In this document: one piece after another, positions 12,691 to 45,724 of the stretch
Position numbering within the stretch: the stretch's first letter is position 1
Layout of the letters: each line of letters starts with the position of its first letter
DNA from: Prorocentrum cordatum
Taxonomy: Eukaryota; Sar; Dinophyceae; Prorocentrales; Prorocentraceae
NCBI GenBank assembly: GCA_963575745.1
Contig: CAUYUJ010000847.1
Location: 20,001 to 84,000 of the forward strand
Length of the DNA stretch: 64,000 nucleotides
Direction: 5' to 3'
Translations under genes and position numbers: made by a program
The notes under the pieces: generated by a model
Databases searched by the model: none
Seen by the model: only the letters and a program-made list of their open reading frames with translations
What the model was told of the DNA's origin: nothing

Positions 12691-15600
12691 TCTGTTGGAG
12701 GTTGGAACGTTCGGAGGTTGGGAAGATACACCTCCGAGTGCATGAATCACATTGCCGAATTAAAGATTTCCATCGTCGGGGTCCAAGAGAGCCAGTTCTT
12801 ACATGACTTGGATCTTGCAGATGCGGGTTGGGATATACATCGCTCGGCAGATGAGGGGGAGAACGTGGGGAGACGGGCTGCCATCTTGTGCCGAGGTGTA
12901 TGGAGACATCTGCTTATCGATGTTGTGTGTGGTCGCCGCTGGGTCACAGGGGTGCACAGGGTGAAGCACGCCGTTCTCCTGAAGGGTTTCTTGCTAGTTT
13001 CAAGCTCTATACGGACGTGTTATCGGATCTTGTTGCACATGTCTCTGCGGCCAAAAAGCGATTTCACATTGAGGAGGTTGTTATCTCGGCTGACGCCAAC
13101 GTGGAGGTTTTCCCGCACCACAGGATCAATGGGGTGGAGGTTACGGGGGAGGCGGTGAATGGGCCTATACGTAAGAGGGGGAGGTCTAGTGGAGGTGACG
13201 AAAGTAGAGCCAACAGGATGAGGGAGATGTACTCGGGGGCCTTTCTGAAGACCATGGGGGCCCTCAAGTTGCAGCTAGCCAACACTTTTGGGAATCGTCA
13301 GCCTACTTGGAGACACAATTCGAGCACATACGAGCACGTCTATGATTATCTTGCGGTCCCAGCTTCTTGGATGACTCCAGAGGTGACTTGTTCTTGGGTT
13401 GTGCCGTCCCAGGTCCCACGGTCGGAGGCGACGGAGAGGACGTTTAGCGATCACAAGCTCTTGTGTGCCGAGATGCCTGCCCAGCATGCTCAGTTGAGGT
13501 ATCGACGTCGGCCTCAGCTCAAGACCTGGAAGCTTCAGCCAGGGTTCGAGCTCCAGCAGACAGCCGGCTTGGAGAGAGCGATTTGCCAGCCCGAGCTCGT
13601 GAATCAGATCCACACGGATGTAGGTTTTGAGGTCATGACACAGAGTATACTTGAGGGTGCCAGGGAGACTTTGGATATCTCCCGTTCCCGTGGCCAGCCT
13701 GTTTCAGACTATCCCAGATATTCGGAGGAGGATTTACTGATAAAGGAGGAGTTCTTTAAGGTCAGGAAGAGGTGGAGGGTGGCACGATATGGCGGGGCTA
13801 ACGTGGGACAGGAGGAGTACGAGAGAGTCCAGGAGGAATACAAGGGGACAGCCAGGAGGTGGCGTCGAGTACGTAAGCGTCATGATCGTGCATGTGAGCT
13901 TTACCGTATTCGTGATGGTGTCCGTCGTAGGCCTGTTATTACGCACATGTATGTTGACGGGGTCCTCACGCGTGACCAGGAGAAGTGGATTGAGGGCCTT
14001 CGGCGTCATGGGCTCCTGAGGTACTCTAGCGATCCCCACCGACAGGACACCAACGCGTGCTTGGATGAGCTTAAGAACCAGTGTAAGGCCCTGCGAGACT
14101 CTGGAGAGCCCCACCGCAACCCGATCAACATGGGTCTCTTGCTGGAGGCACGGTCTAGACTCAGGGAAGGACGGGCAACAGGTGCAGACGGGGTGACGTC
14201 ATCGGTGCTCAAAGCATTGCCATGGGAAGCCCTCCGACACATACTTACCTTATTCCGTTTGCTGTATGATCAGAAACATGTTTCACCGAAGTCCTGGAGA
14301 GAGATCTTGGTATGCTTGATGCCTAAGAATCCCAAGGCTCGTGATTTTGAAGAAACGCGGGCCCTCTCACTTCTTTCTCATTTTGGTAAGTGGTATAGCA
14401 GTTGTCTTTGTGTACTTCTAGAGCACCGCGTTCGGCAGGCTGCACCGCCAGGTTGCAACTTATATGGCTTTATTGCGGGGCACAAATGTTATGAGGTCAC
14501 GGCCCCCCTCAAACGTCTTGCTCAACACGGCGTTGTGTGGGGGAAGGAGGAGGGTCTTTATCTTGCAAGTGCTGATATTGAAAAGGCGTTTGACAATTTC
14601 ACGGTGAGATGTGCAGCAGAGGCGCTTTTATTCCATCATGTCCATCCTGCCCTTGTGTATGCTGTCTTTGAGAGTTATGCTTGTAATACGGCAGAGATCA
14701 GCTTCCAACAGTGTTCTACGACCATCTCGTGGGATACGTGCATACGTACAGGTTCCTTGGAGGCGCCTCTGCTATTTGTTGCCCAGACACTTCGTATGCT
14801 TGCACCAGTGACGGCAGGTTGGAGGCAGTCTGGATACGGCGTCAGGCTCACTGATGAGGCATCTAATCTCCTGGTCAACCACTGGTTGTGGGCAGACAAT
14901 ATTTTGCTGGCAGCAGCTTCCAGGCGAGAATTGACTCATATGCTCGAGGACTTGACTGGGGTCCTCCACCGCTTCGGGTTCAACTGGAAAGCATCTTCGA
15001 TGGAGTTTTTGGCTTGTGGAGTCCAAGGTCCATTGCAGGATATCCGCCTGCCTGTACCGGGTCTCCTGCCTACTGAGATGGGTAGGAAGCGTTCTCGTGG
15101 GGCTTCCCAGAGCGCCGCAGGCCCGTCGGAGGAGATGATAGTGAGGCAGGTGGAGAGGATGGAGGTTCTTGGCACGCTATTGGACGTACGATTTCAGGAT
15201 CATGACGACATTAAGCACCGACTGGAGAAGGCACGGCGGGTCTTCATGAGTGAGATTTCTTTTTACTCGTCGCCCGTGGTTCCGCTTCGTTGTAAGTTTC
15301 AGCGTTATGATAGCAGGGTCAGAAGTTGCTTTCTATACGGATTGGAGGGTACGACTCTGGATTCGAGTAGTCTCCAACAGATACATGCAGCTGAAGGCAA
15401 CTTCTTGTCCACCATGAGACGTCTCAAAAAGAAGATCACGGAGTCCTGGGGAGAGTACTGGGGCAGGAGGATTAAGGGTGGCCGTCGCTTATTGAAGTGG
15501 GCCCGTAAGCCTTCGATGGTCCAGCTCGCCCTTCATCGCCAGTGGCTCTTCGCCAAACATGTTGTGAGCACAATCCATGAGGAACATAGTCGGGTGGATG

Positions 15601-16889
15601 AGGACGCACTCAGCCAGGGCATTCTTTATCATGAGCCACGAGATCCTGATATTTTTGGTGGTTCGCAGCGTTTCTTGGAGTTATCGGTTCCCTCGCCTAC
15701 CCCGAATGCCAGACAGCTCAACAGTTCGTGTAGGAGAAAGGCACAGAGCGCATCCTCCTTGGAAAGTAGGTCAGTTCGCAGACGTATTTCGGAGAACACG
15801 GCATATGAACATCATGATTCACAACATGTACATGAGCCTGTTCGTAAGCGGGTACGCCATACCTATGCACGGGAGGAGGAAGGAGGATTGCCCACTGCCA
15901 GTATGCAGAGCGCCTTGACGATGATGCACGCGTCGGGGGAGTGGACTGAGCAGCGTGACGTGCATGTTAGAGCTCTCCCTGGGGGCCGAAGGTTTACTAG
16001 AGCCTGTCGTCATCGAGTCTTGACGGGACTCAGGCCTTGGTTCGAGGTCTTCGAGCACACGCACGGGGTTCATTGGGATCGCACGATGGTCTGGAATGAA
16101 ACTGGCTGGCGTTCTTTCCTGGTGGGTACCCTGGCCGCCCTGGACTTGGATGATCTTCTCGAGTTCTGCCTTCTTCGGGATCCCTTCACGGGTGAGTTCA
16201 AGCAGGAGGAGGAGGGGGAGGAGAAGTCTGAGGAGCAGCAACGACGGGAAAATGAACGGGTGGCGAAACGACTGGCCGCGATAAATGATGACGAAACCAC
16301 ATGGCGTGGGGAAGGGGGTGGATATGGCTTGGAGCTCCGTGGGGATAGCCAGTGTGTTGTGCGCTGGCTTAATGGAAGATATCGCTGCCATAATGAAGTA
16401 TACCGCCGCACGATCAAGGGTATGCAGAACCGCCTTCACAGAATGAGTGAGGACCATCATCTTGTCACGGCTGAAGTGGGAAGGGATATGTGGAAATGGG
16501 TGTATAGGGAGGGCAACGATGAGGCGGACTATGAGACACATCTTGCACGTGAGGGTAAAGTAACTCCTGATGTTCGTTGGAATCATAACATTCTTTATCA
16601 TATTAGATCGGGTCATTATATTGTTCGTGCACTTAGAGGAGCTTTTGACGGTGGGCGGTGTGAGCGTGGCACCTCGTGTGGCTGGGTTATGGATGCTTAT
16701 CTTGTTCCCTCTCTTCCTCCTCACCAGCTTCCCCCTGGACTTGTGCAGGGAGGATGGCACCCTGGAGTTGGCCGCAGAGGTTTCATGATCCCTAGCCATT
16801 GCACGATCACACAGGCTGAGTTGGCAGCTGCACATTCTCTTCTCAGTGGCATTGCCGAGATGTGTATACACGTACAGCTTGGCAGGTGA
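12679..16889 (+). CDS. Element A ORF2: endonuclease, reverse transcriptase, permuted RNase H
   Basis: The frame continues from the ORF1 stop; around 13,005 a one-base shift moves the rest into the frame opening at 12,888. EEP endonuclease: WNVRRLG, catalytic VGVQESQFL, ISADANVEV (usual GDFN), YDYLAV and FSDHKLL. Reverse transcriptase: ATGADGV, ALSLLSHFGKWYSS, motif A SADIEKAFDN (~14,570), motif B RTGSLEAPLLF, motif C LWADNILL (~14,884) where YADD is usual. C-terminal RNase H motifs occur as GDSQCVV (~16,342), REGNDEAD (~16,507), GAFDGG (~16,641), TQAELAAAH (~16,808): the order of a circularly permuted fold. The enzyme would nick the target and copy element RNA there (target-primed reverse transcription). 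One frameshift makes this copy probably inactive. Confidence 0.85.
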
Positions 16890-21822: not shown

Positions 21823-21858
21823 AGGAGCTCTACGAGGTTCCCGGCGGTGACCAGGTTG
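21823..21858 (+). repeat. Dyad, left half, interrupted by cluster 2
   Basis: GAGCTCTACGAGG, CCCGGCGGTG, ACCAGGTTG, then element D. The right half resumes at 23,650. Confidence 0.85.
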
Positions 21859-22382
21859 CATTAACGTTCTAGATCGTGCTGCGGGGGATCTGGGTATTCG
21901 AAGTTCTGGATTGGGGAAAGATTTATATAGGCATGAATTCAGGGAAGACAACACACGGGCTGATGAACTTACACATTTGGCCCGCGAGGGCCACTGCTTC
22001 TACAACCAGTATGAGTACATGTTTAGCTTTGAGGACTTTCTACAACCTATCGCCTGTCGTGGTGGATACGATGGGGGAGTTTGCAGCAAAGGGACGGGGT
22101 GCGGCTTTTGGCTTCAAGTGGGTTTCATCAATCATAGATATGATTGTAATAAGAGTGTCTCGTGTTCTCCTCTCCCCTCCTCCTCCCCCTACTCCGTGTC
22201 CTCTAATATGCCTCTCGTTTGGAGGGATGTGTGCGAAGCCGCGTGGTGCCTGGAAGGTGCTACGATAACCGACGCCGAACTTAGTGCTGCTGAGGCGCTT
22301 ACTAGCGCTGTTGTGCATTTGGCGCAGCAGATTCTGGCCGCCAGTTGACCCAGCTGGAACATCGGTCCGAAAACCCAAAAAA
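21859..22382 (+). mobile_element. Element D: 5'-truncated LINE tail
   Basis: About 0.52 kb holding only the last part of an ORF2 and a 3' tail, joined exactly to the dyad loop on the left and to ACCAGGTTG (22,383-22,391) on the right. Extreme 5' truncation at the common target is the expected product of incomplete target-primed reverse transcription. The tail (CAGCTGG stem, then AAAACCCAAAAAAACC) resembles that of H. Confidence 0.8.
21911..22348 (+). pseudogene. Element D ORF2 fragment: permuted RNase H C-terminus
   Basis: Reads HEFREDNTRADELTH, then a linker, CRGGYDGGVCSKGTGCGFW, MPLVWRDVCEAAW and TDAELSAAEALTSA before TGA. These are the fourth, first and second catalytic motifs of RNase H in permuted order. 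Closest relative in the window is H (identical HEFREDNTRADELTH). The open frame is undamaged from the truncation point. Confidence 0.8.
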
Positions 22383-26880: not shown

Positions 26881-27364
26881 AGAACCAGAAATTGTTACGT
26901 TGTATTCCATACTTCTCTTATTGAACATGCGAGCAACACAAAACTAGACGGCCTCCGTGGATTCTTCGACGGAGGTCGCTCTGTGGAGGGATGTGCTGCA
27001 CAATGGTGTTTGGATTTGTGTGTGTGTGTGCGCGGGGCGTGGCTGTTGGTGGCGGAGGAAGCTTTCTCGCTTGATGCCTCTGCTTCTGTCGTGTTCTGTG
27101 TGATGTTTGCAGCGCAACGGCTCTGCGTGGCCGTGGTGCGCGTTTTGGGTAGCCTCTTTCATCTCTAACCTGTTCCTACACCTTTGCAATTTCACATGTC
27201 GTGCTGCATCCTTTTCCTTGCTCCTGCATCATATTCCGATGCCTATGCCTCAGTGGCTCGGCAGTGTGATGATATGAGATGCCTTTTCTAGCTACCCTGT
27301 GCTCCGTTTGGGAGTCTTAGGGCTTAGCTGTCACAGCTGTCCGCGCCCTGACTCAAACTCAAAA
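26880..27364 (+). mobile_element. Element F: 5'-truncated LINE tail
   Basis: The final part of an ORF2 plus a 3' UTR with a CCTCAGTGGCTCGGCAG motif (27,248) also seen near 51,500, 52,865 and 53,173, ending CTCAAACTCAAAAA and abutting ACCATGGTTG (27,365-27,374) and element G. The left boundary is placed where the CG-rich module breaks off and is approximate. Confidence 0.65.
26910..27168 (+). pseudogene. Element F ORF2 fragment: RNase H first-motif region
   Basis: The frame reads LRGFFDGGRSVEGCAAQWCLDLCV, aligning with GIRGAFDGGVSIEGVGAGWV of G. The downstream CEL/AEL motif is not clear in this frame, so the fragment is probably damaged beyond it. Confidence 0.6.
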
Positions 27365-32100: not shown

Positions 32101-33310
32101 CCCATGTCTGAGAATCGGCGACAACGACACACGAGGATGATGAAGGAGGCGTAGGAGGAGGGTAGACAAGGAGCCAAAAGGAGTCGTCAAGAGGAGGAGG
32201 ACCCAACCCAACGTGCTGGTCTGAAGAAAACGAGGACCCAACTCTCTGGCAATACACGGAGGCTGAAAGAGAAACTTGGTCACAAACCTGCTCCGCGGGC
32301 TTTGAAGACGGAGAAGTCGGCAATCCTCAACGCACACCTGCAGGCTCGTACTCTGATGCTCGTGGGAAATATTGCTTGGACGGAGGCGATGGACATGTTT
32401 ATCGAGTATCTTGGAACCCAGCAGGCTCGTGAGATCAGTCGCAGCGGCGGTCGTTTGAACGGTGCTCGTCGTCTAGCTTTCCACTCCTGGGCTGGCATCT
32501 TCGAATCCGTGGGAGGTGAGTTCTGGTGGAGAGGTCATCTTCAGTGGTCGGAGAGAGGATGGACAGAATTCTGTCGCCAGGCGCTCCGAGAGCTTGAAAG
32601 TTACGAACACATGTTACCGTATTTCGTGCTCAAGAACAACAACGTACATGTGAGGAAGGAGGAGGACGAGGATATGTCCACGGACCCCTTGCACCCAAAG
32701 AACATTAAGACCTCCAGGAGATTGGCAAACATATGTGAAAGGCAGTCCACTTGGGAATTCTATCCAGGTTACGTTTCTATGGAGTTAAGTGGGGACTCTC
32801 AAGTGGTTGTAAATTGGCTGACGGGCTTGTATAATACTAGCAATCTTACTTATATGAATGAAGTGGCGGAGGTATCTAACTTGCTTTATCTTCTTACAAC
32901 GACATCGGGGATTATCCCACCGAGCGCAGGCCATGATATCTGGAAACGGGTGTACAGAGAAGACAATGCGAGGGCGGATCGGATGACTTGGAATGCGAGG
33001 AGAGGACGACAGGAACGAGTTTTCGATTTGAGGTTTATCAAAGAATGTCAACAGAAGACTATTACAATATCGGGGATACGAGGTGCCTTTGACGGGGGTG
33101 TCTCCATTGAAGGAGTTGGTGCAGGATGGGTATGTGACGTGTGCGTGAGTAGTGTTCTCCCAGGCTCTTCTTTTCCCCCATCTTGTGCCCAGCAGTGGTA
33201 TGAAGATGTTGCTTTTCACTCTTTCTCCCTCCCCCTCCGCCACTTCTATCGCGTCCGCGGAACTCTGTGCAGCGACTCAGCTTCTAAGAGGAGTGCAGGA
33301 CATCATTAGG
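29134..33310 (+). pseudogene. Element G ORF2 (multiple frameshifts)
   Basis: Begins in the ORF1 frame (GCRVAGWSVRRLG) with no intervening ATG, then GVIGLQECQFM; changes frame near 29,350, 29,930, 30,430, 30,650, 31,040, 31,255, 31,640, 32,110 and 33,240. Recognisable parts: SMDANVEVF, YDYLAIP, LSDHKLL; MGADGVGASLLK, SVFSKWYSSC, motif A LDVARAFDNF, motif B RTGSMEV, motif C LWADNVFLF (31,382); then GDSQVVVNWL, REDNARADRMTW, GAFDGGVSIEG and SAELCAATQLL, the permuted RNase H set. Not translatable as one protein here. Confidence 0.8.
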
Positions 33311-33472: not shown

Positions 33473-33751
33473 ACCCAGCCCGGGCAGACGGCGAAAAATG
33501 TGACGGCCTGGCGTCGGTTTTTTGGAGATTCTGAGAGATTTGACCATTCGTTTCGAGAACTCGTATTTTTCGCACCTGTAGTGGTTCTGCCGCGTCTGCT
33601 AGTAAAATTCTCAGGTTTGTAGCTGCAGTATGATTATCGAAACACTAGGCCGCGCCGACTTCGTGTGATACCCCAAAAATACATTGTGCGAGTTTTCAAG
33701 CTGACATTCGAGAACGCTCTCTCCTGGTTATCTCGGCGCTGATTTGCTTGT
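33473..33751 (+). repeat. Type-1 spacer between clusters 3 and 4
   Basis: Type-1 spacer ('cggcctggcgtcggtttttt', 'ctgccgcgtctgctagta'). No gene seen. Confidence 0.6.
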
Positions 33752-33773
33752 TGAGAGGTCTACGAGGGTTCCG
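33752..33773 (+). repeat. Dyad, degenerate left half, start of cluster 4
   Basis: GAGGTCTACGAGGGTTCCGG resembles GAGCTCTACGAGGTTCCCGG; the rest of the left arm and loop are missing, so this junction lost about 14 bases compared with the others. Confidence 0.55.
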
Positions 33774-34206
33774 GCTCAAGACATCTCGGCTCTGGGGCTC
33801 CTGGATCCCACAGGAGCTCAGGGGGTGTCGGCGCCGCGGGGAAGCGGCGCGGCGGCCATCGCTGCCATCGACGAGTACGGCATCTTCCAGGCAAGCCAGG
33901 CCGCCTGCTTTGTGTGCTGTAATTGTTGTTTTGCTTGTCGTGTGTGCAACGACGGACGGGTACGACTTTTCAGTGCTTGCTAGACGTTTCCAGCTGGAGG
34001 ATATTTCCCCGACTGTACCTTATTTGCAGTACTCACAGGATTACGGACAGAGACCAGATTCTGCTGTTGAGAGGGCGTCTCGGAAGAGGCAAATTCAGGA
34101 TACCGAGCAAATTGTACGTGACCTTCCATTGGACGGGAGATTGAATACCGCCGACTCCACACCAGATAGTGATAGTCACTGTGTTGTCCCATCTTCATTT
34201 GTGCAT

Positions 34207-35523
34207 ATGAATACAGGACTCATGAATATGATGCAGACTCCTTCCAACGCAGCTGTGGCGGGAGGTACAATCAACGGAGGGCGTGTGGGAGGGCTTCCAG
34301 TAGGTCAGGTCAGTCCTGGAGGTCAAGGATCTGGAGGCGCTCCTGTTGTTCCTAGAGGCCCAGCTCCACAAGGTGCTCTAGGGGGACCCCCAGGTATGCC
34401 CACGGAGGCACAACAAGCGGCGGCCCAAGCGGCTGTTGTCCCTGAAGGTGCTGGTGAGCGTCAGGGTATGCAGGGTGTTAGCGACGACGCCCAACGAAAT
34501 GTCAAACATCGTGTCAACGGTCCTCAGGAGGCACTCTTGGGGGAAGTCGAGGAGAAGCGAAAGAAACTCAGTGTGGTCTCGGGCGAGGCCCCATCCTGGT
34601 TCAAGGCCTTCGCGGAGCTCAACGTGCTTGAGAGCAAAGTTAGGCAACAAGAAAACGTCGAAATTAGGGCCGATATTCAGAGCATCTCGAACCGTCAGGA
34701 GGCCTCCGACATCAGGATGGACAACTTGGAACGACAGATGCAGGATCTCAAGAAGAACCCCAGTGTGATATCAGGTGCTGCCTCGACCACGGCACCTTCC
34801 TATGGAGGAGGCCCACCAGGACTCTCGGGACCATCCAGCTTCAACCCCAGCTATGTGGAGCTCACAGGCTGGACTGACTGGAACGGGACAGCGGTTACAC
34901 GTTCGACCAGTATGATGAGAGACGCGGACGCTGCACAATTCATCACTAATTTGAAGACGGCCATCGCTGCAGAGGATGAAGCTAGGATCGATTACGAGGG
35001 CACATTACGTATGAATGGAAGTCGAATGATGTTGAGTACGATCAAAATCAAATTCATTGTAGGAACCGACTCTTCGACACTATACAACGTGAAGCGTGCT
35101 TTTGATGATGCTTTAACTCCGAATCCCCAGAGGAATGCGGCTCAGGTTTCGAGGTCACCTCCAGACTATGACAGCATGTTCCAGGGCATGTTACAACGAC
35201 CCAGTCGGGTCCGCGTACGTATAGAAGCTCCACCATGGAAACGTGATCATATCGGGGCTGTGGGACGCTTCTATGGGACATACCGCGAGTGTACCAACAG
35301 TGAGGCCATGGAGATCAGGGGGGAGACAGGATCGGGACCCAACGGACGGAGCACAATGTGGACCAAGCCGCAGGATCCTCAGCATCGACCCGTGGAACTG
35401 GCATCCTTTCGTATCAATACGGGGTGGACAGTGGACCGCGAGATCTGGGAGGGTGTACTTATGCGCAGCGGTGTGACGACTACATACGACACATTTGTTG
35501 CGAGTCTTGCCGGCAGGGTGTGA
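34207..35523 (+). CDS. Element H ORF1
   Basis: From the first ATG (34,207) 438 residues; the frame is open from 33,748. The N-terminal part is rich in G, P, Q and A; a coiled coil follows (~34,620-34,755: LNVLESKVRQQENVEIRADI, MDNLERQMQDLKK); then SYVELTGWTDWNG, IKIKFIVGTDSSTLYNVKRA and VRIEAPPWKRDHIGAVGRFY. The phrases 'F/Y-V-E-L/C-x-GW' and 'APPWK' are shared with A, G, J and K, so the C-terminal half is the conserved part. Probable RNA-binding partner of ORF2. No zinc knuckle is seen. Stop is TGA-CGG-TGC. Confidence 0.8.
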   Translation: MNTGLMNMMQTPSNAAVAGGTINGGRVGGLPVGQVSPGGQGSGGAPVVPRGPAPQGALGGPPGMPTEAQQAAAQAAVVPEGAGERQGMQGVSDDAQRNVKHRVNGPQEALLGEVEEKRKKLSVVSGEAPSWFKAFAELNVLESKVRQQENVEIRADIQSISNRQEASDIRMDNLERQMQDLKKNPSVISGAASTTAPSYGGGPPGLSGPSSFNPSYVELTGWTDWNGTAVTRSTSMMRDADAAQFITNLKTAIAAEDEARIDYEGTLRMNGSRMMLSTIKIKFIVGTDSSTLYNVKRAFDDALTPNPQRNAAQVSRSPPDYDSMFQGMLQRPSRVRVRIEAPPWKRDHIGAVGRFYGTYRECTNSEAMEIRGETGSGPNGRSTMWTKPQDPQHRPVELASFRINTGWTVDREIWEGVLMRSGVTTTYDTFVASLAGRV

Positions 35524-35589: not shown

Positions 35590-38500
35590 ATGAAACAAGG
35601 GGCTACAGCAGATCGGGGATTTGCTTGCATGAGGGCACTTCTTTCTCACGGCTGTGAAGTGTTCTGTTTACAGGAGTGTGAACACTTACCGTCCAATTCA
35701 ATTCATCTGCTTGGCTGGCACCTAGTTTACTCAAGTGACAGGAAGGCTTCCATAGCTTTGAGGGGGAAGTCTTGTCACAACATAGTTCGTTCTTGGAATA
35801 ATCATGCTCGTCTTGCTATTGTGTGCTTGCGTCATCCGTGTATCTTTCTTGTCTCTGCGTACTTTCCGAATAGATCGGAGAATCGTTCATTGGAGGTGGC
35901 TTTTGAGATGCTGAAAACAATCGAAACAACTTATCGGAGGTGGAAGGAGGAGTGCAGATACACATGTGAGCTTGTGATTGCAGGGGATTTTAATGTTGAG
36001 CTTGCGCCCGACATCACCTGTTCAGGAGGCACGGTGACTGGAGGTGCTGTGCAGATTCTCGACGGGAGGGGATATGGGAATGATACGGAGGATAGACGGT
36101 GGGAGGAGGACATGTGGCGATCTCAGCTGCAGGAGTGGCTATGTCGGATGCGCTTGCTGGCAGTCAATTCTCTTGGCTCGCCGTACTCTCGGCAGCCGAC
36201 CTTCGTGCATCGTGCGAACAATGCTCGACGCAAGTCTGGGGCGAAGACTATTGCGCCAAAAGTGCTTGACTATCTCATGGTCCCACAATCCTGGGAGGGT
36301 GACTTGGTTGAATGCCGAACGGATTGGATCCCAGAGACCCCGACTACCAACTTCTCGGATCACGCCTGTGTCTACGCCGAGTTCCAGATGCAGAACCCTC
36401 AGGTCACGAAATATCAAGGCCCCCCTAGCCACCACACAAGCCACAAAGAGTTCCAATCGTATCGGGAGGAGGCTCAATTCCAGGTCCTGGCGGACGTGCA
36501 GATCCCGACGGTGCCCCCACAACGTATTGCTGGAACGATTGCTGGACATGCGTTACCACTCCTCACGGTGAGGGCCCCCAGGTACTCTAGAGGGCTCCCA
36601 CCAAGTAGGACTCCTCAGCATGCCGAGCTGGAGGTGCAACTCAGAGAGGCACGTGCTAGGAAGGACAGAGCGTTGGCTCGAGACCTTCGACGTCGCATCA
36701 GACCGCTGGCGCGGGAATATCGCCGACGGAAGGTGGAGTGGGAGGCACTACCATCTAGGAAGGGGAGGAGGACACGTGTGACGGAGTTGAGGGTGACGGA
36801 CACTGGGGGAGGGGATATGGGGCCTACGACTATGATGACGGAGGACAGGGAACTGTGGGCGGAGGAGGTGGAGCGATATGCTGTGCAGAGTATGACTTGT
36901 GATGACTCCAGAGCCCGCAATCGGGAGCTTGTGTCCACATTGCGTCGCCATGCATCTCAATTAACAGCCTCTTCGGACAACACACTTACGATCACATACT
37001 CTACTATTCTGCAGGCGCGGAGCAGGCTCCGAACAGGACGGGCCTGTGGGCCCGACGGCATCTCGGTTGAACTTCTCAAGGCTCTTTCGTGGAGGTCAGT
37101 GCGTTCTATTGGTAAGGTTTTCTCTGATATATTCAACGGGCTTCGCCCGACGCCCAGGGAATGGCAGGAAGTATACCTAACACTTATGCCGAAAACGAGT
37201 AAACTGGAAACATTGCGACAAACAAGGAACCTGCTTGTTGGAAATACCTTGGCCAAGTGGTATCTCACGTGTGTGACGATTTTACTGGAACGATGTGTGG
37301 AACCCTTCATGAGTGATATGGCGGTTTACGGTTTTACCAGCGGACGGCGTTGCTGGGAGATTTCATCGGCCATGAAATGTATTGCACAGCATGCTTCCAC
37401 ATGGGGGCGAGATCAAACGGCGTGGCTCCTCAGCTGTGACATCGAGCGGGCGTTCGATGCTGTGACGCTGCCGACAGTCTCGAGAGCGATGACGGCCCTG
37501 GGGATCAGTGCACGGTTACAGTATGCGTTATTGGAGCCTCTCTCATCTACCGCATGCACGGTGCTATTTGAAGGAGTGACAATCCCCAATGTGCAGTGGG
37601 ATAGGTCGCTCCGTACTGGGGGTACCGAATCACCTATCGCGTTTACTATTGTCACTATTGCTATGTGGCGTGATGTGATTGCTCGCCTGGACCAGCGCGG
37701 TGTCGGAGTCGAGATGCCATGCCATGATGATCACTGCCGGTATGCACGATGGAATCATGCTCTCTGGGCTGACAATATTTTTCTGGCCGCCAAGTCAGCA
37801 TCGGAGGCGCAGGTAGCAGCCGCTGCCTTCACTACTGCTCTCAGGGATTGGGGGATGGAGTGGAAGGAGGAGAGTTTAGAAATGATGGTGTGTGGTACTC
37901 AGTACACTGATACGGTCACGGTTCAGATTGGCTCGCGGATTGTACCTTTCAAGCATGTTGAGAGTTTGAATGTGCTGGGGTATCAGATTCCCAGAAGTTT
38001 CACTGCTATCCACACGGATGTGCAGGAGCGCGTCCAGCAGGCCCGAAGGGCATTCTTTGCGCAGGTGCAGTATTTTACGTGCAGGGCGCTGCCTCTGGTG
38101 AAGAAGTTTCGTCGATATCAATCGACTGTGCAGAGCCGCCTTTTATATGCAGCAGAGGCCATCACGATTGACAGTGAGTGTGTGAGGGTTATCCATGCGT
38201 TCGAGGGTATGTGTCTTCTGAGAATGTCAGGGAGGAGGAAGCCAGGAGATGTGGGGTGGGAGGTATGGCGGCCAGCTGCACTGACACGAGTCAGGACAAT
38301 CTTCTGCGATGGGGGTTTCCCATCGGCTGTGCAGATGCTGTGCTGGAAGAGCTGGGGCATGATGCGCTCCACGAGGCAATATTTACTATCTTTGGAGGGG
38401 GACAGGACGGCAAGGACGGAGGTTGAGGTGGAGGGATCAACGACTCAACGTGCTAAACGTGTTCGCTTTGCGGAGAGACGGGGGGAGGATGTTCCTGCTG

Positions 38501-39975
38501 CGACTATGATGGAGGTGGAGGGGGGGATTACGGATATGGAGAGGCGGCTGGAGGATCTATGCACGCAGGTCGCCTGTTCCATTGCCCGCTCACAGCCGAT
38601 GCCCTCTGGAGAGGGAGCTGCCCATGCTCTCAGAGACGAGCCACTTGCCGTCTCAAGAGGGAGGAGGGCCTTTCGAGACTCCCGACGTGCACTTATGATG
38701 TACAATGTTGGCTGGATCACGGCTCGCGACACAATAACAGAGGTTCTACGACAACACGGCAACAGGGCCTTATCTAGTTCGGGCAAACGGCTTCGTGGAG
38801 GCCCTGTGTCTGTGGGCGGACGGTCTTGGCAGTTCCCATACATTCAGTTCTTTGGGGAAAAGTGGTGGGAGTCTGTACGGGGTGATTGGGTTCAGTTCTT
38901 GGAGGTATGGAAGCAACTCCTTATACAATACAACAAAACTAAGGTCTATGATTACTTTGTGGTGTCTTGGAAGGGCTCTCCTAATGGACCTCGAGGCTCC
39001 CCTGAGGCTCGAGAGAAGGCCGATACTGAGACGGTCGACATCGCGACCAACCCTCTGCACCCCAAGTATGACCCCAAAGAGTCCGCCAAGCTTGCAATAC
39101 GTTATGCTATGATCCAGGAACGTGCGACTGTGTGGGATATATCGTCAGAGGGTTTTGCTGCTGAGTTCAAGGGCGACTCACTACTTATCTGCTCCTGGCT
39201 CCAGGGTAAATGGAGATGTGAGAATCGGGGCTACTGCAAGAGGACAGCTGCCATGATTGATTGTACCTTTGAGCTCGCTGCGTGTTTCAATCTGAGGCCT
39301 GCTGCCTTGGGACGTGAGATATGGAGACATGAATTCAGGGAGGACAATACACGAGCGGATGAATTGACGCATGAGGCCAGATATGGCCGCACATTCTACA
39401 GAACTCATTGTTATCTATATCCATTCGAAACTTATCTCGTACCGTTCGCTATCAGGGGAGGCTTTGATGGCGGGGTTGACCAGCAAGGATCAGGATGTGG
39501 TTTCTGGCTTCAGATCGGCTTAATCAATACTCAGTGCAATCCCAGTGAGATAGGCATCGCTTCCGCGAGAACCGTGGGCCCCTTCCCTGCTGGGCATGAG
39601 TTTGCTGTTTCTAGTGCCGTGCCCCTCGTTTGGAGGGATGTGGCCGAGGCCGCGTGGCTCCTCGAAGGAGCTACAGTCACAGAATGTGAATTGTCGGCAG
39701 CCGAAGCGCTGCTCAGCGCTGCCCGTGTGTTGCTGCGGGACCGGTCCTCGCCCAGCTGCACCCAGCTGGGAACGCGAGTCCAAACAAAAACCCGCACACG
39801 GGTCCCCGGGGGTAACCTGGTTGCCTCCCTCCTCGGGGGTCTGGCGGCTGGGGGCTCCCGTTTGGGGCTCTCGTCTCGAGCGGCATTGTGCCGTGCTGCT
39901 TTGTTTGGTTCTCATTACCGTACACGGCCTGTGTATCGTACGTGCTCATTGATTGTCGGCGAGCAGATTCATTGA
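35590..39975 (+). CDS. Element H ORF2: EEP endonuclease, reverse transcriptase, permuted RNase H
   Basis: 1,461 codons from the first ATG; coding probably starts upstream by continuation from ORF1. Endonuclease: CLQECEHL, AGDFNVEL (residue ~133), LDYLMVPQSW, FSDHACVY (~257). Reverse transcriptase: ACGPDGISVELLKAL, NTLAKWYLTC, motif A SCDIERAFDAV (~617), motif B RTGGTESPIAF, motif C LWADNIFLAA (~726). RNase H: FKGDSLLICSW (~1195), HEFREDNTRADELTH (~1247), RGGFDGGVDQQGSGCGFW (~1293), VTECELSAAEALL (~1367), i.e. the third, fourth, first and second catalytic motifs in that order. It has no stop before its own 3' end; the frame runs into the 5' UTR of J. Nicks and copies at the dyad target by inference. 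Confidence 0.88.
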   Translation: MKQGATADRGFACMRALLSHGCEVFCLQECEHLPSNSIHLLGWHLVYSSDRKASIALRGKSCHNIVRSWNNHARLAIVCLRHPCIFLVSAYFPNRSENRSLEVAFEMLKTIETTYRRWKEECRYTCELVIAGDFNVELAPDITCSGGTVTGGAVQILDGRGYGNDTEDRRWEEDMWRSQLQEWLCRMRLLAVNSLGSPYSRQPTFVHRANNARRKSGAKTIAPKVLDYLMVPQSWEGDLVECRTDWIPETPTTNFSDHACVYAEFQMQNPQVTKYQGPPSHHTSHKEFQSYREEAQFQVLADVQIPTVPPQRIAGTIAGHALPLLTVRAPRYSRGLPPSRTPQHAELEVQLREARARKDRALARDLRRRIRPLAREYRRRKVEWEALPSRKGRRTRVTELRVTDTGGGDMGPTTMMTEDRELWAEEVERYAVQSMTCDDSRARNRELVSTLRRHASQLTASSDNTLTITYSTILQARSRLRTGRACGPDGISVELLKALSWRSVRSIGKVFSDIFNGLRPTPREWQEVYLTLMPKTSKLETLRQTRNLLVGNTLAKWYLTCVTILLERCVEPFMSDMAVYGFTSGRRCWEISSAMKCIAQHASTWGRDQTAWLLSCDIERAFDAVTLPTVSRAMTALGISARLQYALLEPLSSTACTVLFEGVTIPNVQWDRSLRTGGTESPIAFTIVTIAMWRDVIARLDQRGVGVEMPCHDDHCRYARWNHALWADNIFLAAKSASEAQVAAAAFTTALRDWGMEWKEESLEMMVCGTQYTDTVTVQIGSRIVPFKHVESLNVLGYQIPRSFTAIHTDVQERVQQARRAFFAQVQYFTCRALPLVKKFRRYQSTVQSRLLYAAEAITIDSECVRVIHAFEGMCLLRMSGRRKPGDVGWEVWRPAALTRVRTIFCDGGFPSAVQMLCWKSWGMMRSTRQYLLSLEGDRTARTEVEVEGSTTQRAKRVRFAERRGEDVPAATMMEVEGGITDMERRLEDLCTQVACSIARSQPMPSGEGAAHALRDEPLAVSRGRRAFRDSRRALMMYNVGWITARDTITEVLRQHGNRALSSSGKRLRGGPVSVGGRSWQFPYIQFFGEKWWESVRGDWVQFLEVWKQLLIQYNKTKVYDYFVVSWKGSPNGPRGSPEAREKADTETVDIATNPLHPKYDPKESAKLAIRYAMIQERATVWDISSEGFAAEFKGDSLLICSWLQGKWRCENRGYCKRTAAMIDCTFELAACFNLRPAALGREIWRHEFREDNTRADELTHEARYGRTFYRTHCYLYPFETYLVPFAIRGGFDGGVDQQGSGCGFWLQIGLINTQCNPSEIGIASARTVGPFPAGHEFAVSSAVPLVWRDVAEAAWLLEGATVTECELSAAEALLSAARVLLRDRSSPSCTQLGTRVQTKTRTRVPGGNLVASLLGGLAAGGSRLGLSSRAALCRAALFGSHYRTRPVYRTCSLIVGEQIH
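39881..39893 (+). promoter_or_regulatory. 5' UTR hairpin CGGCA-TTG-TGCCG (element J)
   Basis: Same loop and position as in C and G but the stem carries swapped base pairs (CGGCA/TGCCG in place of CCGCA/TGCGG). Confidence 0.6.
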
Positions 39976-40385
39976 TTGTCAGAGTGCACGCTCCATTGAT
40001 TGTCAGAGTGCACGCTTCATTGATTGACGGTGTGCACGTTCATTGATTGTCGGAGTACACATCATTGATTGTCGGAGTTTGCATTCATTGTGGTCGGAGT
40101 ACACATTCATTGTCTGTCGGAGTACATCTTCATTGAGAGGCTGCACTTCGTATTCTTTCAGTGTTTGTTGGAGTACACACTTCATTGACTGTTGCAGTAC
40201 ACGCTTCATTGGTTGTCGGAGTACGCATTCATTGATTGTGGGAGTACATACTCATTGATTGTCTGAGTACACTTCATTGACGGTGGGAGTACACATCCAT
40301 TGACTGTCGGAGTACACTTTCATTGACTGTTTGGAGTTCGTATTTATTGATTGTCAGAGTACGCGTTTCATTGCCTGTTTCAGTG
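39955..40385 (+). repeat. Element J 5' UTR minisatellite
   Basis: About 14 degenerate copies of a 25-35 base unit 'cattgattgtcggagtacacatt'-like (core CATTGATTGTCGGAGTACAC), tandem just ahead of ORF1. May act as promoter monomers, as in some LINEs; this is a guess. Confidence 0.75.
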
Positions 40386-44500: not shown

Positions 44501-45724
44501 CTGGGCAAAGGATGTGGCATCGTTCGCTTGTATGCATACGTGCGCACCTATGTTAGCGCGTGCGTCGGGGGAGGAGGTGCATATCAATCGGCGGCAGCGT
44601 GCGAGAATCTTCCGGGAGACGGTGCGGGGCCAACGGCAGAGGCTCTCGACCGCCCAGCCTGGTGAGGCTCCGACACCAGCACCACCTGTGTCGGATGACG
44701 TGTCAAGGCCCTTTGTTCTTTCACGTGTTGCGATGCTGCATGGATTGGGGGAGTGGACGGAGAGGAGGGGGGCTATGATTACTGCAAGTGGGAGGAGGAC
44801 GGAGATAACCAGACTAACAGGGAGGAGGTTACCTACAGGCTACAGGCCGTGGGACTTTCTATTTGTGCAGGCTGCTTGTGTGAGCTGGTGGCGCCATCTC
44901 GACTGGAGTGAACATGGTTTTCGCGAGTTTGCTACGGCCCGACTGTGCGCGGCGGGATTTTCACATATGACGGAGGGCTTTATCTTTGAGGAGGAGGGAG
45001 GCAATATACACAGAGAGGAGGAGGAGGAGGAGGAGGGCAATCAGTATACACAGGCGGCGCTTGATCGCATTGCCAGGCGCCTCGCAGCAAACTTTGAAAA
45101 TGAGGTCCGCTTCGAGCGACGAGGCGGAGTTGCGATGGAGCTGTTAGGCGACTCCATGCTGATAACCAACTGGATGAGGGGAAGGTGGAATTGCAACAAC
45201 AATATATGCCGATCGCAGGTGGGGGAGGTTTTTGATCTGTTAGACGACGCCTGTCGAATTTTAAGCTGCAGGGCCCAGCCACAGGATGTGACTTGTGGCG
45301 TCATCACTATCGTGAAGGCAACGACCGTGCCGACCGACTGACTTGGGAAATCAGACATCTACCATTACAATCGAGGTACAGAAGCATTCAACAACATATA
45401 TACAATACTGAAACATTGATCGCAATCCGTGGTGCGTACGACGGTGGCGTTAGCAGTGCAGGTGCTGGTGGAGGATGGTGGCTAGACGGTGAGTTCATCA
45501 GCGAGCAATCTGGGGAAGGGGTTAGTGATTGCCTGCACACGTTTACCCGTCCGTTGGCGGAGGAGGCTTTTGGCCCGCTTCCCGATGCGACGGTTACTCA
45601 GTGTGAGCTTGAGGCCGCTTCGAGACTTGCCCGCTCTGCTTGCAAGATACTTCAAGAGTATCACGTTTTTCAGGGTACATCCAGCCCACAGGGGATGGCT
45701 GCACCAACCCGGCCGCCCTTGTAG
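41529..45724 (+). pseudogene. Element J ORF2 (three frameshifts)
   Basis: Frame 1 to ~43,160: LGSWNLRRRG, then LLGGQGCEN where the catalytic QE of other copies should be, LTDANVELSP, LDYIGLPG, VSDHALL, and a basic region. Frame 2 (~43,130-43,640): SKWYSLCLTILAEE, motif A GSADVLQCFDHV. Frame 3 (~43,660-45,290): motif B RAGGVESPFLF, motif C LWADNLYVCA (43,893), then LLGDSMLITNWM. Frame 4 (from ~45,290): HHYREGNDRADRLTW, RGAYDGGVSSAGAGGGWW, VTQCELEAASRLA, TAG. Permuted RNase H order is kept. Nonfunctional as written. Confidence 0.8.

Follow-up and report, generated by a model that had tools for sequence, protein, structure and literature searches.

The LINE copies in a 64-kb window of the Prorocentrum cordatum genome (the window being the whole stretch of 64,000 nucleotides analysed here) raise the question of whether the C-terminal part of their ORF2 protein is an RNase H in which the two halves of the fold have exchanged places and, if so, whether such a domain could still be a nuclease. 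Protein folding and catalysis have both been studied with RNase H as a model, and circularly permuted versions of E. coli RNase HI engineered in the laboratory are able to fold and can show activity; these were designed and are not natural. A natural permutant retained by an abundant LINE clade with many near-identical copies would let evolution show which connections between the elements of the fold are important. On the evidence set out below, we consider it probable, at roughly 0.86, that the C-terminus of ORF2 is an archaea-like RNase H (aRNH) that has undergone circular permutation in nature. If so, we know of no earlier natural case of a circularly permuted RNase H in a retroelement.

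Results

LINE copies and location of the domain

The coordinates of the domain and its parts are collected in Table 1. Copies H and A are open in the window, while copies G, J and D are broken. When whole ORFs were compared with Pfam, the ORF2 of copy H matched RVT_1 with an E-value of 1.3e-12, and the ORF2 of copy A, a long frame at 12855-16886, did so with 3.8e-7, both over the cut-off. Upstream of the H ORF2 lies an ORF of 591 aa (33748-35523), and a reverse transcriptase (RT) in ORF2 together with such an ORF places the element among the LINEs. Putative AP-like endonuclease motifs (GDFN/DANVE and SDH) were recognized by eye at the start of ORF2 in H, A and J, as well as in P0008, one of the related proteins described below, and Pfam gave a weak endonuclease match for copy J (Exo_endo_phos_2, E 0.25). 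The ORF2 frame ends within about 15 residues after helix aA in A, D, P0001, P0003 and P0008, where it should be noted that the end of P0003 is possibly cut by its contig end; in H and J, the frame continues past aA.

Table 1 Predicted features of the permuted domain and of the LINE copies that carry it (positions in the window)
Feature	Position	Strand	Remarks
Copy H ORF2, LINE	35590..39975	+	1461 aa; endonuclease-like motifs, RT with WADN, connection region, predicted permuted RNase H
Copy H, predicted permuted RNase H domain	39088..39750	+	221 aa
Copy H, leading half (counterpart of the canonical RNase HI C-terminal half)	39151..39381	+	b4 (39151-39174), aB, long helix, b5, aE
Copy H, linker between aE (former C-terminus) and b1 (former N-terminus)	39382..39435	+	
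Copy H, trailing half (probable counterpart of the canonical RNase HI N-terminal half)	39436..39747	+	b1, b2, long low-confidence loop, b3, aA
Copy A, predicted permuted RNase H domain	16260..16886	+	ORF ends right after aA
Copy G, predicted permuted RNase H	32683..33306	+	open frame broken before the AEL helix
Copy J, GDS-motif stretch, first frame	45060..45338	+	
Copy J, RE.N..AD, DGG and CEL stretch, second frame	45236..45721	+	
Fragment D	21851..22345	+	RE.N..AD, DGG, AEL; GDS part absent
Fragment E	26908..27147	+	match to the DGG region of the domain only; J3 query, E 8e-7

Order of the motifs and catalytic-type residues

The preliminary description of the window had reported the motifs of copy H in the order GDS, RE.N..AD, DGG, AEL. 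Residue coordinates bear this out, with D at 39175-39177 (GDS, 39172), R at 39337, D at 39358, D at 39466 (FDGG) and E at 39688 (ECEL, 39682), and with one slight error in the positions given earlier, as 39463, assigned to GGFDGG, is that of the F. All five residues could also be located in the same order in copy A (D 16344, R 16506, D 16527, D 16647, E 16818). Copy G has the order claimed for it, in an open frame that breaks ahead of the AEL helix, and fragment D agrees as far as it is preserved. The order in copy J agrees as well, but the frame changes between GDS (45147) and RE.N..AD (45302), which had gone unmentioned.

The canonical order of the RNase H residues, as given in a figure legend of PMC5348765, is D, E, D, R/H, D. 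Compared with this, the order in H and A means that the last half of the domain stands first. As the canonical succession b1-b2-b3-aA-b4-...-aE was not found and the halves are reversed instead, we treat the domain as a permuted variant rather than as an ordinary aRNH member. The domains in the window share 27-53% identity over the parts that they hold, and pairwise tblastn between A, D, G, H and J gave E-values no higher than 7e-8. The earlier statement that the order is conserved across diverged copies extends from these to 80 of 80 fetched genome loci and to P0001-P0003 and P0008.

Predicted structure

Structures were predicted with AlphaFold2 without templates, from alignments led by H (8 rows) and by A (9 rows). 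For the A domain, pLDDT was 86.7 and pTM 0.86, with all five models at 83-87. The values for H were lower (pLDDT 71.6, pTM 0.76), two of the five models were good, and the b2-b3 loop is of low confidence. The structural prediction that had been proposed for H thus returned the RNase H set of secondary-structure elements in permuted order, and A did likewise with better confidence.

The A model contains a strand (22-28), helices (31-38 and 46-66), two short strands (68-70 and 78-80) and a helix (83-97), followed by a linker with a short helix (109-116), three strands (120-134, 137-150, 165-177) and a helix (183-208), which we read as b4-aB-aD-b5-aE and then b1-b2-b3-aA. The linker spans 18 residues in the H model and 22 in the A model. 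RNase HI carries its catalytic residues at the end of b4, in aE, in b1 and in aA, and each catalytic-type residue of the A model lies on the same kind of element: D29 at the end of b4, R83 and D90 in aE, D130 in b1 and E187 in aA. In the H model, similarly, the D of GDS at 39175 ends b4, RE.N..AD (R 39337, D 39358) is held by aE, and the D of FDGG (39466) and the E of ECEL (39688) fall in b1 and aA, respectively. In E. coli numbering, we take the leading half to bring the D70-, Arg- and D134-type residues and the trailing half the D10- and E48-type ones.

Profile comparisons of the leading half

When the family profile was compared with all PDB sequences, five matches were obtained up to an E-value of 10, all of them RNase HI or ST0753 and all aligned from b4 on. 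These E-values are weak, being 0.016 (A1), 0.012 (A5, native order) and 0.0087 (A4, rotated), and none passes 0.001. NCBIfam RNAseHI_Thmprot matched four of five members with a best E-value of 6.1e-6, a result that refers to rotated sequences only. A further comparison used 75 aligned sequences of canonical archaea-like RNase HI, namely ST0753 and 74 of 80 archaeal-type RNase HI loci. In native order, hhalign placed its residues 54-143 on the leading half with an E-value of 7.7e-10, which is a single-comparison value, and the Arg of (Y/F)RE.N..AD aligned with R118 of ST0753. An Arg in the fifth active-site position marks archaea-like RNase H, according to the available parts of PMC5348765 and PMC4640811. 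Arg thus replaces His at this position in our domain, the sequence similarity extends over the C-terminal half (weakly in the PDB searches), and the catalytic-type D, E, D, D are present in 80 of 80 loci, P0001-P0003 and P0008. By these profiles, the leading half is identified as that of an archaea-like RNase HI, a class that the preliminary description had not named.

The statement that no complete RNase H lies upstream also held, as the canonical archaeal RNase HI profile found no other significant piece. Against the ORF2 alignment from RT to the end, this profile gave one strong match, on the GDS..AD half, which extends upstream, at low confidence, into sequence that looks unrelated, and a second, weak match nearby (0.58). 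Against the whole of H, A, P0001-P0003 and P0008, it matched one stretch in each, within profile positions 56-130. Pfam detected no RNase H in the whole ORFs of the window, and H had no match to the Pfam RNase H families in native or rotated order. RVT_3 matched three of five members in either order, below the cut-off; for P0008, rotation extended the matched part of the profile from 63-119 to 35-119 and raised the score from 15.8 to 17.5 bits (cut-off 21.6). PHROGs gave one weak match of unknown function.

The trailing half and the effect of rotation

A profile search with the motifs reordered had been suggested. With the halves rotated, the full-length global alignment improved, but the PDB profile scores were little altered and the number of members matched by RVT_3 did not change. 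The rotated global hhalign alignment covers residues 1-140 in 136 columns with a score of 65.2 and an E-value of 4.6e-12, versus 100 columns, a score of 54.0 and 4.9e-10 when unrotated (both E-values being for a single comparison), and the rotated score was reached by two of 300 shuffles of the trailing-half columns. The default local alignment after rotation covers residues 44-135 only, with a score of 67.3 versus 64.1 unrotated. In native order, hhalign reported a second match (0.26) that places residues 1-69 on the trailing half. By itself, the trailing half showed no significant similarity to canonical RNase HI, as 40 of 300 shuffles did as well, nor did it with a 27-row alignment, where 58 and 117 of 300 shuffles were as good. 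Since the trailing half alone thus fails to beat shuffles, its identification rests on the modelled structure, on its position and on the conserved D and E rather than on sequence statistics. The profile alignment, with no motif supplied, sets these two residues on D7 and E52 of ST0753.

Relatives and genome copies

A search with the copy A protein yielded P0001-P0003 from ENA and JGI assemblies, 52-53% identical, with P0001 and P0002 being near-copies of each other over their shared part, and a profile search (A2) added P0008 at 34% identity. All four end in the permuted domain. More distant LINE proteins (P0004-P0007 and P0009) have an ADD box and did not match the permuted pattern. A protein search with the C-terminal region of H alone gave nothing at E up to 10 among 7812 candidates, and scanning the element against viral contigs and prokaryote genome contigs gave no relative.

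The genome to which the window belongs (4.13 Gb in 21875 contigs) was also searched. For the H domain, the best 150 of 5350 candidates are all at least 99% identical, and 149 are free of stops, so that this family has at least 150 near-identical copies. For the A domain, the best 150 of 5325 candidates include 131 at 91-100% identity, some over part of the domain, and 19 at 56-58% that form a second family. H and A each belong to a family with more than 100 close copies, most of the matches being without stops. We then considered 80 fetched loci, chosen by domain similarity (30 for H, 30 for A, 13 of the second family at 56-58% and seven lower-ranked A loci), two of which (L094 and L119) are copies H and A themselves. 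The five residues stand in permuted order in every one of these loci, 78 being counted by a pattern that does not exclude stops and two by inspection; in two of the 78 pattern-matched loci, the N of RE.N is replaced by D.

Selection on the domain

Twelve copies were picked by hand from 40 matches of an RT-region DNA search (244 candidates) and hence not by the domain; seven lie outside the listed H-domain matches and one is cut by a contig end. Relative to the H domain of the window, they carry 39 synonymous and 11 non-synonymous differences (pN/pS 0.085), with no stop and no change at a catalytic residue, so that the permuted domain is under purifying selection. Some of the copies have gaps of 1-5 bases, which may be true indels or edge effects. 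For copies of A, 29 similarity-ranked loci gave pN/pS values of 0.116 within the domain and 0.163 across the 300 codons preceding it. Other values for H, 0.020 in the domain and 0.261 upstream, were set aside because the loci behind them were top-ranked identical proteins.

Reverse transcriptase motif C

The string LWADN occurs on the forward strand at 14889, 31384, 37765, 43896 and 50069, i.e. in copies A, G, H and J and in one further copy near 50 kb. These five are all the places in the window at which motif C of this clade was located. WADN is also found in P0001-P0003 and P0008, while P0004-P0007 and P0009 have ADD. Motif C of the RT thus departs from the (Y/F)xDD type in having Asn for the second Asp of YxDD. 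Over a stretch of the RT region in which the WADN box lies, at least 40 copies of H show 99% identity or more, and it is therefore unlikely that the box reflects damage. The RT search gave nothing outside the WADN clade above 25% identity.

Discussion

In the arrangement that we propose, the b4-to-aE half comes first, followed by the linker of 18-22 residues and then by b1-b2-b3-aA, so that the new chain ends would lie at the site of the loop between aA and b4. The polypeptide would regain the usual five-stranded RNase H fold and its single two-metal active site, and we predict that the domain is a working nuclease. Its substrate would be the RNA in the RNA:cDNA hybrid that the adjoining RT produces at the target, and removal of the RNA after target-primed reverse transcription would clear the way for second-strand synthesis. 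As to the origin, a canonical archaea-like RNase H may have been duplicated in tandem in an ancestor of the LINE clade, with subsequent loss of the outer halves, in which case the linker would be the join left by the duplication. Our searches found no relative in canonical order by which to date the permutation. The permuted order is shared by divergent families and by relatives from outside assemblies, and the rearrangement therefore appears old in comparison with the present copies.

Several other explanations should be considered when interpreting these results. The permuted fold might no longer be a nuclease and might serve as a structural or RNA-binding part of the ORF2 protein, as non-LTR elements are said, in the available part of PMC5348765, typically to use host RNase H; we regard this as improbable, given that D, R, D, D and E are kept in all 80 fetched loci, in P0001-P0003 and in P0008 and that purifying selection is strong. 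Less probable again is an arrangement in which the two half-domains work between two ORF2 molecules, as a swapped dimer, and not as one permuted domain. Retroelement proteins often dimerise, and halves joined by a linker of this length could pair between chains, yet the single-chain prediction is confident (pTM 0.86).

The lack of a significant profile match for the trailing half by itself could also mean that RNase H is confined to the leading half, the remainder being a beta-rich terminal part of other origin in which DGG and AEL occur by coincidence. Against this stand the alignment of its D and E with those of ST0753 without any motif being given, the expected order b1-b2-b3-aA in the H and A models, the retention of both residues in 80 of 80 fetched loci and the rarity with which shuffles (two of 300) reach the rotated full-length score, and we consider such a coincidence very unlikely. 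As copies G, J and D of the window are broken, the motifs might even be degenerate or chance remnants of a decayed element, but H and A are open and their families, each of more than 100 close copies, consist mostly of matches without stops, which leaves this last explanation hardly credible. A permuted archaea-like RNase H thus remains our preferred reading. We also lean, with less assurance, towards a wider view in which a successful LINE clade carries a working natural RNase H permutant, fixed before the clade diversified, together with the WADN RT.

Among known systems, the closest is archaea-like RNase HI (ST0753, 2ehg, 3aly; Pfam RVT_3; NCBIfam RNAseHI_Thmprot), which the LINE domain resembles in the b4-to-aE sequence and, following the available parts of PMC5348765 and PMC4640811, in the Arg that replaces His and in the catalytic set D, E, D, R, D. 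It differs in its reversed halves and new aE-b1 linker, in the long b2-b3 loop of H and in a b1-to-aA half that shows no significant similarity by itself. Plant Ta11 and oomycete L1 are likewise described, in the available part of PMC5348765, as APE-type non-LTR elements whose ORF2 ends in an aRNH; compared by description only, they have the canonical residue order (D-E-D-R/H-D in the figure legend), and the WADN of the RT sets the elements of the window apart from them. What is new here is the permuted order; an aRNH at the ORF2 C-terminus is already known from Ta11 and oomycete L1. RNase H is also carried by the non-LTR elements of the I-group, Proto1, Dualen/RandI and Utopia, again in canonical order (D-E-D-H/R-D, figure legend of PMC4640811), and in oomycete Utopia it is placed upstream of RT in the part of that source available. 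The SymbioLINE-Dnmt elements of Symbiodinium are two-ORF dinoflagellate LINEs as well; compared by description only, they are known for an ORF1 methyltransferase, and the available part of PMC5890265 mentions RNase_H for DIRS-like elements.

Our search, confined to the open-access literature, turned up no description of a naturally permuted RNase H. The string 'permut' is absent from the main text of PMC5348765 and from that of a superfamily survey (PMC3985635), the available parts of PMC5408684 and PMC3578095 use words for a permuted RNase H in other senses, and the dinoflagellate LINE literature, as far as available and including PMC5890265 and PMC12014239, holds nothing on a permuted domain. 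As ordinary RNase H profiles see half of the domain or none of it, searches of retroelements may have missed or truncated it. Next to the plant and oomycete cases described in the available part of PMC5348765, the domain is a further example of an archaea-like RNase H in a non-LTR element; if our reading is true, duplication and loss of halves rebuilt a core enzyme of a mobile element.

Other features of the elements

The same genome contains YADD/FADD LINEs (G000, L001-L008) with long open frames, several of which have equal scores and frame lengths, and visual inspection of three pieces of them revealed no RNase H. The dinoflagellate spliced-leader string is absent from the 64-kb window at up to three mismatches. 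The stretch between RT and RNase H (A 15804-16390, MMHASGEWTE...; H 38605-39090, MMYNVGWITA...) is common to A, H, J, G and P0001, and Pfam reported nothing in it. Ahead of motif C, A, P0001 and P0008 have RTGS(L/M)EAP, where RQGxPLSP is usual. Copy G reads SAELCAATQLLRG.. and then a stop, in a frame other than that of the domain. The ORF2 of copy H extends 74 codons beyond the end of the domain (39751-39975), and its 3' tail at 39946-40330 consists of about 16.5 copies of a 23-base unit resembling TCATTGATTGTCGGAGTGCACGAT, with 73% matches.
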